Source of the DNA: Sistotremastrum niveocremeum HHB9708
Taxonomy: Eukaryota > Basidiomycota > Agaricomycetes > Sistotremastrales > Sistotremastraceae
Direction of reading: 5' to 3'
Assembly (NCBI GenBank): GCA_001630475.1
Contig: KV419470.1
Location: 1 to 59,003 of the forward strand
Length of the DNA: 59,003 nt
Both the position numbers and the translations under genes were made by a program. A model generated the notes under the pieces. That model was not told the DNA's origin. It saw only the letters and a list, made by a program, of their open reading frames with translations, and did no database searches. This document shows positions 53,177-59,003 of the stretch, in pieces. Every line of letters begins with the position of its first letter. The first letter of the stretch is position 1.

Positions 53177-53425
53177 GGTGGCTGAAGCCAACTTCATGGG
53201 CGGGCGAAGCGAAGCTGTGATCGGAGTTACGACGGACATAAGCGCCCAGCAGATCTTTAGATTTTCTTCGACGAGCTGCGTTCTTACCAAGTCTAGAATT
53301 TTGTACAGCTTCTGCCGTCTTCAATATGCGACGATGGCATCTGGCTTCAGCTCCCTCAGCATTCCCATCCACGTGTATCGCCTATCCTCTCATCTCCTCA
53401 CCGCGGACACGTTGTGCTCATCGTC

Positions 53426-54998
53426 ATGGACGTTCATCAACGGTCGCCTTCACCTGCGTCTACTAATGGATCCATATATCACGAAACTATTAATGTCAAT
53501 AATAACGACTTGACGAGCTCATCACAGCCTAATACGACTGCGTCTGCCAACTCTACGAGACCGCCGTTGCCAACTAGGCCCCTCCCCTCCACACCCACTC
53601 AAGCAGTTGCATCGTCCTCCAAGCAGCCAGCCACACCCCGAATCAATCATGCTAGTCTCGTTGATGTCGGAGCATCGACATCTGCGCTCAATCAAGCAAC
53701 AACGTCCACTTCTCATGAGGGTACATCCGCTAATCCACGTTCATCTCCCTCCCTTCGTCGTCCAAACGAACCCCTCCCTCTATCGTTCGACGCAACATCA
53801 TCTCCGGCATTGGGAACCCTCAATATTCCGCCGGCCACATATTTTGACCAACATCCTCCCACTCATACGCATACGCATACGCAATCCCAGTCCCACATCC
53901 AATTTCCTGCTCGACCCCAATCTCATACGCCCACTCGAAACTCGACGGGTGGATCCTACGCACCCAATAGTGTCGTGAGAGTAGCGGTGAATCATGGTGA
54001 TGGGTATGACATGGATATAGCTGCGCAGGGGACGGGTCATGATGAAGAAAGGCGTCCGAGACCGTATACTCCCCTCCCGCCTCCTCAACGTCTCGATCGT
54101 CTCAACAGCACGAGAACGCAAGCCTCTCATATTAACGGAAATGCTAGATCGCAGAAGGATCTCCATCGTACCGAAGACGAGGTACTTGTTCCAGTCATTT
54201 CAACATGGCTGATCTCACTATTGATACAGGTGCTCACCGTTAAGGAACGACTGAAGCCAACGATGAAAGCAGCTAAAGCACGTTATCTGCATTACAATTT
54301 CATCGCCGAATTCTACGGTATTGGATCGAACCTCGCCATTGGTCTTCAGGTAGTTATCGGAGCTCTGATCACCGGACTCGCCGCCGTCACCGTGGGACGC
54401 TCTACGAGCGTCATCACGGCCATCTTGGGAGGGTGTAGTACGATCATCGCTAGCTTTCTCGCGAAGGCGAAGGGTAGTGGAGAACCCGAGATCAGTCGTG
54501 ATAAGAGTCATGAGTTGGCGAAGGTACGTATCATCTACTGTTACGATTGTCTCGAGAATGAAGCTCATTCTCTGGGGGCAGCTTGTGAGGGAGATGGAGG
54601 TATTCATTCTTGATCATGGCAATAAGCGTCCCCGTGCCGCTTTCAAGGCAACACTCGCTCCGTCAGCCTCGACCTCCGACCCTGGTTCACCCGGGACATC
54701 CATGGAACATGCCAATCCGATGTCGCCAATTCATGGAGTCCAAGCTGAGGAGACCGTTCGGAAACGCACGCAGATAAGGGGTGTTGACGAGTATGAGAGT
54801 CCGGAAGATCGGTTATTGGAGGGAATGATTGAGAATTTCCGGATGAGACTGGAAGAAATGGATCGACGGCATTCTAGAAGTCGAAGGTGAGTGTCAATCA
54901 CAATTATCGGCGACATGATGCTGATCGATGGTGTTGTGGATCGTAGCTCACAAGCGCAGGCTGAAGCGGCTCAATCGACCAACCCGAATCCTGCCTGA
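53426..54998 (+). CDS. SLATT (2-TM effector) domain protein, fungal type
   Basis: The ATG at 53426 opens MDVHQRSPSPASTNGSIYHE. About 260 disordered residues follow, rich in Ser/Thr/Pro/Gln, with a His-Thr run (THTHTHTQSQSHIQ) encoded by repeated CATACG. After an intron comes the SLATT-like region: LTVKERLKPTMKAAKARYLH, AIGLQVVIGALITGLAAVTV (TM1), SVITAILGGCSTIIASFLAK (TM2), AKGSGEPEISRDKSHELAK, then LVREMEVFILDHGNK in the next exon. The tail contains SPEDRLLEGMIENFRMRLEE and ends STNPNPA. Three short introns. SLATT domains (Pfam SLATT_fungal) are proposed pore-forming or membrane effectors related to bacterial SMODS/SLOG conflict systems; in fungi the function is not established. No sensor domain or nucleotide-generating enzyme is adjacent. 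Confidence 0.8.
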
Positions 54999-56485
54999 TC
55001 TAGATTCCCGCGGCTTCTCGGTTTTCCTTCTGGTTATTTCGAGTTTCGGACGAGTAAATTCGACGGTCTTGGTAAATCTACTCGATTAGCTTCAATTCAA
55101 TTTTGATCTCTCGACCCGCCGCCTCCATCAAATTCCTGCCAAGTTGAAACCAGTTCCAACGACGTTGCGATAAGCTGCTATCTGCTGCATTCGCTATTTG
55201 AAGCAGTTGGCGACTCGGACTTACTGCGGAGCGACGACCCTCACGACTTCTTCATCGTCCGACGCACAAGTCACTTCAGTACATATTCGAGAGTGAAACA
55301 CTAAGACCGGATAGAACATAAAATAATAGCCTTGGCATAGCAGAAAGCCCTGAAATTTGAAAAACAATTCTGGGAGGTGGATGGATGTCTGTAAGATAAT
55401 ACTATGTTCGGAAAGTAGAAGAAAGTGAGACGCAAGGTGCGGAAAGTGAGCGATTGCTCTGTCCGGTCGTTGGAAAGCTCCGGAATCCGATTGAAAGAGC
55501 TCGGTCGGCTTCCGAATTAAGCGCCTAGCCTTTTGCTAAGCACGAACATCTCTGGCTACGACGACTGCGTGCATGGCTTTCTGATCTACGACGACGGCGT
55601 ACTTCTCTGATGCTATGAATGGGACCGAATATCTCATGGTTTTCAACGAGTTTCACGGTCCGATCTGAGCCTGCCGTCGTACCATCGATACAAGCAGCTT
55701 ACTTGGATTTCGGGCTTCACTTCTACCATCGCTGATTCAAATTCGTGCCCTCGGACCTGCACTGTGGCTGAATCAACTACCCAACAACATCTCTCCGTCT
55801 GTCCTTAGTCAACGAAGCATACCGTAGTCTCACGCGTCACGGAATCACTTCGTTAAACAGTGCGTACGATTATTCTCGTGATCTGATCTGATATTTGATA
55901 GCTAGCAGAGGCAAAAGGCAATGTTACCTCATCAATGAAGTCAGTATCTAGACCACATGAAGATGGAGGAGGCTTGTGACCGGAGGGGGAGGAAGACTGG
56001 GATGGCCTGCCTTCGGACGATGACGATAGAAGAGTGGAATTGGATATTGCTCGTCGTACGTTCATTAGTTTTATCTGTTCAAGGATATTCATTTAATGCC
56101 TACTCAGACACACCGTGTTACACGAAGGCCTGCTATCCATTCATTCTTCGACAATTCCTCCTCCTTCGTCACTCTTGGGAACTCCATCCCTTCTTTTCAT
56201 AGAGTCTCGTAGCCTGAGATACTCAAGCCCGTTCTACTCCGGCGCGGGCCTATCGGCGTTAGGATTTCCTTTGTTTGGTTGTTGTTGTCATCCGACGCGC
56301 CTTCGTAGAAGGGCTTGAGGAAAGTTACATAGGAGGGGGGGGATTACTTAGTGAATCGATGAGACTTAGCAGTTTTTTTCTTGCAACTCGCCTGCCCGCC
56401 GTGTCCCGTCCTTGATCCCGCCTGCCCGCCCGCTGCCTTCGCCATCGCCGACCTCTGATCAGGCACTGGTTCCCTGCTCAGGGTC
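54999..56485. other. Intergenic, subtelomeric
   Basis: About 1.5 kb. The only coding-like piece is a minus-strand Ser/Pro-rich frame at 55853-56092 ending at a possible GTAACA donor after LDTDFIDE; no partner exon was found. Otherwise short frames. A C/G homopolymer tract and T-run lie near 56330-56380, upstream of the helicase gene. Confidence 0.4.
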
Positions 56486-58786
56486 GATGCTTACTAATCC
56501 TGACGCGTCCGCCAACGCGTCCACCGATGCATCTAACGCGTCTGAGCAGCACAACATGCGCGACGAACTGGCCGAAAAGTGCCTTGAAAGAACTGGCTTT
56601 ACTCCTCGTGACTGGCAGCTAGATGCTTCTACGGCCTTACTCGATGGAAAGGACTGTGTAGTGATAGCTGGAACTGGTGAAGGGAAGACACTACCTTTCG
56701 TGCTGCCATGCTTCGTTCGACCCGACATCACCACGTACATCATATCCCCTCTCAATGCACTCCAAAATGATCAGGTATATATCTACCCTCACGTGCTATG
56801 GAGTCTGGACTGGAGCTGACCACCCTTGACAGGCACATCGTTTTCGAAAATGGGGACTGAAAGCTACATCTGTGAACGCGAGAGTGATGCAGAATGACAA
56901 GAATTTACTGAAGGTGCGCAACAGCTACTTCCCTTGTATCCAGGTGATGACTTCTGTTCGTACAGAAAATCAAAGAGGGCCACTTCGACATCGTTATCAC
57001 TTCCCCCGAAAACGCTCTCGCATCCAGCCATCTCCGACCCATACTCACCGACCAGAAGCTCTCCAAAAAATTCACCATTGTCATTGATGAAGCACACTGT
57101 ATCTCGCAATGGGGGGGAGAGTTTCGCCAGGCATGGGGCAAGCTCGGCAACCTACGCTCGTACTTACCTGTCGGCGTTCCTTTTCTCGTCACTTCTGCAA
57201 CTCTTCCACCCAGCATTCTCGAAGAGGTCAAAACATCATTGCATGTTCGCGATGATCATATCCTCATTCATCGCGGAAACTTTCGCAAAAATCTTGTGTG
57301 GGAGACACACATCCTTCGTACAGCTGTTCATGGTTACGAAGAACTCGCCGACTACCTTCTTTCCAAACCGACCAATCCTAGCGAACCGCGCCTTCCCATT
57401 CAAACAGCCCTTGTGTATGTCAACAAGATCTCCGACTGCCATCTCATCTGCAACTACCTTCGCTCTTTACTTCCCGACGACGAAGAAATTCGATACCAGA
57501 TACAGCCATTCCATGCTGTTCGCGCTGAAGAAGGCAAGTGTCGAGTCCTTCGTCACTTCAGGAGCGGTCGGATTGTCATCCTCATCTGCACTGAAGCTGC
57601 CGGCATGGGCTGTGACTTTCCTCGCATCCTCATCGTCATCCAGTTCCTGTTACCCAACTCTCTCATATCATGGATTCAGCGTGCTGGGCGGGGAGGAAGG
57701 AGTACTGAGGAGCTATGTCGATGCATACTAATGATCGAACCTGCTGCTGTCACCACCGTCGCTGCCAAATCCTCTTCCGACTCGACCTCTTCCACCTCCA
57801 CCTCTTCCGCCTCGACCTCTTCCGCCCCCTCTGACAACATTACTACTCTCTCCGATCTCATTGGCCCAATTTCTGAACTTAACCCAGTTGACCCCGACGA
57901 GGACGAACAGAACGAAGCGCCCACCAAAGCGCCTGTCGAAGCGCCCACTAACCCAGCAACTGTAGGTCGATCCAAGCAAATCGAAACCGGCCTTCGACTC
58001 TTTTTCGAGACACCTAACTGCCGTCAAGATATTATCGACACTTACTCCGCTAATCCAAGACACGAAAAGCTCACTGTTGGGTGCTGCGAGAACTGCATAC
58101 GCGCTCGTCTGTCTGTTACGACTCCCGCGCCTCAGACAGAGAATGCCGACGTCAACTTGCAACAAACCACCGAAACAACTGAAAGAACACTGGCTCCGCT
58201 CCCTCGTCGACCTATTGCTTTAACAAAACAAGTTCAAGAAGCACTGTTAACATGGCGGGAGAAAGTTTGGGAGGAGGAGTGGTATTGTAGCCTTCCGATC
58301 AGTTGGATAATGGGCGACAAAACTCTGGCTTCTCTATCCAAGATGTTTGCGGACGAGTTCGATGTTGCAAAGCTTTCGCCTTCATGGGAGCAACATGTTC
58401 AATATTCCCCTGCCGTGCAACGAATTCTCAAGGAAACAGAGGCCGACTATTACAGTATGATGAGTGCCCAGACTGCCGAACGTAACGAGGAAACACGACG
58501 GAAAGCAGAGATCAAGCGTCAGGAGAAAGAACAAGAGAAGGAAAGGAAAGCACGAGAGCGGGAGGTTGCGAGGATAGAGAAACTGAATAAGAAAAAACAA
58601 GAGAAGCTTGAACTTCAAAAGGCGAAATATCGAGAATATCAGGCGAAGACAAAGAAGGGTGCAGGGAGACCCCCAAAGAAAGTCGTATCACCACCTGCGT
58701 CGCCGGCCTCGCACCTTGTAGGTAGTAGGGTTGCATCTGTCGATAGTCACTCTGTTCAAGTTCTGGCGGATCTTTCTAATCAATAA
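56486..58786 (+). CDS. RecQ-like DNA helicase, subtelomeric
   Basis: ATP-dependent DNA helicase of the RecQ family. Start MLTNPDASANASTDASNASE (56486); MRDELAEKCLERTGF at 56556 is an alternative. Motifs in order: FTPRDWQLDASTALLDGKDC (motif 0), AGTGEGKTLPF (Walker A), ISPLNALQNDQ (Ia), then across two introns ITSPENALASSHLRP, IVIDEAHCISQWGGEFR (DEAH, motif II), VTSATLPP (III), CTEAAGMGCDFPRI (V) and WIQRAGRGGRSTEE (VI). An Asp/Glu/Ser spacer follows, then a Cys set resembling the RecQ zinc site (CRQDIIDTYSANPRH; VGCCENC). The C-terminus has a charged coiled coil (KEQEKERKAREREVARIEKL) and an AT-hook-like GAGRPPKK. Ends LADLSNQ. All key helicase residues appear present, so it may be active. 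It resembles telomere-linked helicase genes of other fungi and faces the terminal repeat, 112 bp away. Confidence 0.88.
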
Positions 58787-58898: not shown

Positions 58899-59003
58899 TT
58901 AGGTTAGTGGTTAGGTTAGGTTAGCGGTTTTTAGGTTAGCGGTTAGGTTAGCGGTAGATTAGGTTAGCGGTTAGGTTAGCGGTTAGGTTAGCGGTTAGGT
59001 TAG
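58899..59003 (+). repeat. Telomere-like array, unit TTAGGTTAGCGG
   Basis: From 58899 to the last base the sequence is a run of TTAGG- and TTAGCGG-type pieces. The distal part is regular: TTAGGTTAGCGG repeated, a 12-bp unit. The proximal part contains variants (TTAGGTTAGTGG, an extra TTAGG, an expanded TTTTTAGG, TAGATTAGG). The G-rich strand runs 5' to 3' toward the window end, as expected for a chromosome terminus. The unit is not the TTAGGG usual in fungi. Confidence 0.82.

Follow-up and report, generated by a model that had tools for sequence, protein, structure and literature searches.

Mixed TTAGG and TTAGCGG words at contig ends of Sistotremastrum niveocremeum: probable chromosome ends and a proposed single long telomerase template

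The stretch of Sistotremastrum niveocremeum HHB9708 DNA analysed here (the window, 59,003 bp, contig C77 of the assembly) breaks off inside a G-rich repeat built of two words of unequal length. This raises the question of whether the contig ends at a true chromosome end and, if so, how such a repeat could be written. We put at roughly 70% the probability that these are fungal chromosome ends at which telomerase writes both words from a single template of at least 13 nt.

The terminal array and its distribution

As read from the sequence, the contig ends at 58899..59003 (plus strand) with an array mixing TTAGG (A) and TTAGCGG (B) with one TTAGTGG (b), and the G-rich strand of this array points outward. 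Both this reading and Tandem Repeats Finder, which reported a 12-bp unit in 6.9 copies at 58914-59003, bore out the preliminary description, in which the 105 terminal bases had been assigned to the words TTAGG and TTAGCGG with an outward G-strand. The array is read as A b A A B [TTT] A B A B [TAGA] A B A B A B A TTAG. It is irregular close to the junction and regular from 58959 onward, in agreement with the earlier claim that proximal units are degenerate and distal ones homogeneous. In addition, the 17-mer TTAGGTTAGCGGTTAGG has four copies in the window, all of them within the terminal array, and was absent from 100 dinucleotide shuffles. The features considered in the window are the following:

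58899..59003, plus strand: terminal array, very probably telomeric, a TTAGG/TTAGCGG mix ending where contig C77 ends
58959..59003, plus strand: regular distal part of the array, ABABABA then TTAG
57239..58786, plus strand: reading frame with a Helicase_C domain (Pfam), which stops 112 bases short of the array and is the outermost gene seen here
56412..56819, plus strand: reading frame with a DEAD helicase domain (Pfam)

The whole assembly (34,710,156 bases, 34.7 Mb, in 111 contigs) was then searched for the same array. All 45 occurrences of TTAGGTTAGCGGTTAGG were terminal, at most 140 bases from a contig end, and they were distributed over 13 ends on 13 contigs with zero internal copies. Copies at left ends were on the minus strand and those at right ends on the plus strand, so that the G-strand was always directed outward (45/45). 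The right end of C6 was also picked up by both TTAGCGGTTAG (73 places, 9 internal) and TTAGGTTAGCGG (63 places, 4 internal), and the array-bearing ends are thus 14, on C6, C22, C25, C27, C40, C41, C43, C49, C53, C63, C71, C77, C81 and C88. Array length ranges from 40 to 140 bases, and every array is cut by the assembly. Since several of the carriers are large, including C6 (1.2 Mb) and C22 (0.5 Mb), small foreign contigs are no explanation for the array.

An inspection of the other contig ends had been proposed as a check, and its outcome was favourable as far as it went: 13 further ends carry the TTAGG/TTAGCGG array and none a terminal TTAGGG array, as judged by a search of the assembly for three TTAGGG in tandem with one mismatch allowed. 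The TTAGGG arrays that would mark the ends of a vertebrate-type telomere were accordingly not what was found. The sole triple TTAGGG-like run, with one mismatch, is internal (C7:339676-339693). As regards the left ends of the large contigs C1-C15, three start with N and the other 12, which are readable, are array-free, with no CTAACC in 300 bases, as fits a fragmented assembly.

These data bear on the alternative that the assembly broke at internal minisatellites, with no chromosome end involved. The contigs do stop within repeats, which are common assembly break points, and related TTAGG-like repeats are found internally on C6. However, a break of this kind would leave one outward and one inward flank, whereas 14/14 arrays are outward; moreover, the confinement of TTAGGTTAGCGGTTAGG to the ends and the mostly unrelated neighbours of the arrays also speak against it, and we regard this explanation as the most improbable of those considered.

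Subtelomeric neighbours and the telomerase protein gene

The sequences that border the 14 arrays on their inner side are all different. When the outer 10 kb of the ends were compared, pieces of more than 100 bp were common only to C25/C71/C77, to C43/C81 and to C41/C63, with 68-91% identity. The sole feature common to all 14 ends is the terminal array, as would be expected for a sequence that an enzyme adds on any end.

In the window, the Helicase_C frame is a neighbour of the telomere and lies outside it, and the DEAD helicase frame upstream is probably the 5' portion of the same gene. A helicase family common to chromosome ends was considered and rejected, as none of the other 13 ends had a match to the frames in its outer 10 kb. 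A further reading frame, with a SLATT_fungal domain (53414-54610, plus strand, Pfam E-value 4.5e-23), is located about 4 kb from the telomere. Apart from the window, the stretch of C31 from near 425863 to the contig end (L075) holds the last part of an 18S rRNA gene together with the start of ITS1, and is a eukaryotic rRNA fragment; no rRNA was recognised by Rfam in the sequence preceding this 18S end.

The RNA-binding domain of TERT (PF12009) was identified above cut-off at C17:593650-594161, in two exons whose E-values were 6.4e-20 and 6.8e-8 in one search and 9.2e-24 and 2.4e-9 in the other. The frames that follow it include KVDVRACFDSI, GIPQGSILS and LIDDYLLIT, which by eye resemble reverse-transcriptase motifs, and Pfam RVT_1 gave a weak match (E-value 0.048) on these pieces. 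An outward G-rich repeat present only at ends, unrelated subtelomeres and a TERT gene, as belong to a telomere made by telomerase, were all found. Based on the 14 contig ends of one polarity, their differing neighbours and the TERT gene, C77 very probably stops at a genuine chromosome end, and its array is very probably a telomere.

Recombination between chromosome ends might also maintain them in the absence of telomerase. Several ends do have a few subtelomeric pieces in common, and the distal arrays, where copying would show, are absent from the assembly. Nevertheless, no two of the 14 strings of A and B are alike, most neighbours are unshared and the TERT gene is present, which makes this manner of maintenance very unlikely, scarcely more credible than minisatellites.

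Order of the words and the proposed template

In total, the 14 arrays contain 113 A, 67 B and 4 TTAGTGG units. The last is a recurrent variant of TTAGCGG, found once each at C6, C49, C77 and C81, and it may come from a T placed opposite a template G or from a methylated C that was lost. Taking TTAGTGG as B, the 160 steps from one word to the next comprise 37 AA, 62 AB, 55 BA and 6 BB. In other words, B is followed by A in 55/61 cases and by B in 6/61, while A is followed by B in 62/99 and by A in 37/99. The 117 alternations observed exceed both the mean (79) and the maximum (100) of 20,000 within-array shuffles. The runs of A between two Bs have a length of one (32 cases), two (11) or three (1), and runs of up to seven A occur near the junctions, the array of C43 opening with seven consecutive A. 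The 12-bp alternating unit of the preliminary description consequently holds for the distal part of C77 but not as a strict rule, given the AA and BB steps. Irregular units are found in 10/94 cases in the proximal halves of the 14 arrays and in 3/100 in the distal halves (4/100 with the distal-end TTAGTGG of C6 included).

Given that TTAGG is copied from CCTAA and TTAGCGG from CCGCTAA, both words must be templated. Two telomerase RNAs or template alleles, one per word and used in turn, would account for the presence of both words and for the runs of up to seven A near junctions, as in C43. Their independent use would not yield the strong alternation and the rarity of BB, and so we consider this possibility unlikely, although it is the least improbable of the alternatives. 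The same two properties favour one template with both words. The telomerase RNA would then carry both CCTAA and CCGCTAA in a single template of at least 13 nt, the most probable order being 5'-CCGCTAACCTAA..-3', and a full pass would add TTAGG followed by TTAGCGG (12 nt). The order 5'-CCGCTAACCTAA-3', with A copied first, is weakly suggested by the fact that the first word is A in 12/14 arrays and that 8/14 start exactly at TTAG; the probability was 0.0007 for the start phase (uniform starts) and 0.006 or 0.05, depending on the null, for A as first word, in a post hoc argument in both cases.

As GGTTA would recur within the template, the DNA end could re-align on it: early release with re-alignment at the template start would produce TTAGG TTAGG (AA), and re-alignment one word deeper would produce TTAGCGG TTAGCGG (BB). 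We think it rather probable that a single long template, encoding words of 5 and 7 nt that share the GGTTAG core, is read with a biased, nearly alternating switching of register. With similar confidence, each chromosome end would keep a natural record of telomerase release and re-alignment, and the two mixed words would report the register choice of the enzyme. A long template and slippage had earlier been offered as alternatives: a template of more than 12 nt and register slips, combined, fit the array grammar, and what falls is the opposition between the two. The GGTTAG core is kept at every word boundary. A telomere protein of the Myb type could still bind it, and with the mix one could test to what extent an altered spacing of these cores is tolerated by telomere proteins.

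All 14 contigs break off directly after TTAG, which is the only point in this two-word language where the next base is ambiguous (G or C). From this we infer that the assembler halted at a branch, and assembled array length is then a lower bound. Such a branch would be expected if molecules or ends differ in the distal order of the two words.

Telomeres of 12 nt and mixed telomeres are already known elsewhere, and the TTAGG/TTAGCGG mix adds a variant to them, whose motif did not turn up in the open papers searched. Schizosaccharomyces pombe has a different telomere sequence. Its likeness to the present arrays, in the excerpts of the sources used for this comparison, is that of a fungal telomere with heterogeneity inside the arrays (PMC4839565). 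That of Aspergillus oryzae, TTAGGGTCAACA, is a 12-nt fungal telomere on a TTAGG core; it has one fixed 12-nt word, in place of the intermixed 5-nt and 7-nt words seen here (PMC3603654; PMC10100673). Allium (CTCGGTTATGGG) also has a 12-nt repeat, copied from a template of 18 nt, that is 1.5 repeats, the length earlier proposed for the template of the C77 telomere; it differs in being a plant with, as described in the excerpt, one 12-nt unit of unrelated sequence (PMC6765143). The arrays of S. niveocremeum are not built of one fixed 12-nt word like these homogeneous telomeres, but of two words of unequal length intermingled within the same arrays, as in the mixed telomere of Genlisea hispidula. 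In that plant TTCAGG and TTTCAGG are intermingled in one species, but they differ by one T, and the excerpted text makes no mention of near-alternation (PMC6765143). Among basidiomycetes, departures from TTAGGG through template change or slippage are described in Malassezia (TTAGGA, TTAGTG, TTAAGTG), these being, in the excerpts, single short words of which none equals TTAGGTTAGCGG (PMC12506658; PMC10100673). The basidiomycete motifs named in the fungal section of TelFinder are others. None of the open papers searched contained TTAGGTTAGCGG, the papers listed on telomerase RNA and on the telomeres of fungi, basidiomycetes and mushrooms did not show it, and no title among the matches listed concerned a telomere with TTAGCGG, CCGCTAA or GGTTAGCGG.

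Candidate loci for the telomerase RNA

A long motif should ease the finding of the telomerase RNA, an approach that succeeded in Allium and also in A. oryzae (PMC3603654; PMC10100673). In exact searches and structure scans of the assembly, no telomerase RNA with a matching template was identified. The search used five words from the 12-nt cycle, which together touch every stretch of at least 14 nt and 9/12 of the 13-nt registers; two of them had no internal place. Eight internal cycle stretches of at least 14 nt were obtained, none convincing as a template. That at C6:1074782-1074798 (17 nt, a length of match for which about 0.05 are expected by chance) was rejected because, by eye, it lies within an ABC-transporter-like gene, in an apparent short intron, and that at C5:228212-228226 (15 nt) because it falls, also by eye, within an F-box-like reading frame. 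Four on C6 (1145447, 1145482, 1145641 and 1170788; 15-16 nt) are inside a repeated element. The remaining two, C38:134669-134682 and C14:466801-466814 (14 nt each, about 3 such matches being expected by chance), have a reading frame about 180-270 and about 300 nt downstream, respectively.

Rfam yielded no telomerase RNA in 11 candidate loci, its two matches being both to Hsp83_3_UTR below the gathering score, and folding of three loci gave z values of +1.85, -1.40 and -0.69. Among the 11 loci scanned, only L053, which is within the transporter gene, combined a P6.1-like hairpin with an Sm-like site downstream of the template. With up to 2 mismatches allowed, the Ustilago P6.1 word had 81 matches and its reversed control 89; judged by coordinates, no candidate had a match to the word in the 2.5 kb downstream of it. 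Downstream of the PF11326 gene, which we take to be of the EMI1 type, no template was present. This is the position of the telomerase RNA in Ustilago (PMC12506658). The telomerase RNA gene may sit in stretches of the assembly that read N.

The template put forward in the preliminary description, CTAACCGCTAACC, has six internal places (C5:134463, four on C6, and C38:134669). None resembles a telomerase RNA gene, and this template would favour TTAGCGG runs, which are rare here. The first of these places is an example for a further alternative, namely a template with TTAGCGG only, such as C5:134463-134475 (13 nt), from which TTAGG would arise by regular single-base mis-alignment. This stretch has no obvious gene, and 619 nt downstream is a P6.1-like word that departs from GAGTTGGGCTC at one of 11 positions; a match this close occurred in 0/48 window segments of 1.2 kb. 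Against this, pure TTAGCGG should dominate the arrays, which is at odds with the scarcity of BB; a strict scan detected no Sm-like site downstream; and the P6.1-like word, found after ten loci had been tried, has an altered loop base, presumably at a critical position, in a locus of ordinary folding (z -0.69). We judge such a template quite improbable, more so than two RNAs and slightly less so than recombination, and retain the single template with both words. At this locus (L043, C5:133000-136000), CTAACCGCTAACC is bordered by an apparent 10-bp inverted repeat, and L043 is a weak candidate for the telomerase RNA.

Finally, the repeated element on C6 (L044, C6:1144000-1147000, and L045, C6:1169500-1172000) carries cycle words of 15-16 nt next to repeats of the CTCACCTAATCTAACC type. 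Its copies lie about 28 and 53 kb inward from the telomeric right end of that contig and are perhaps relics of old telomeres.
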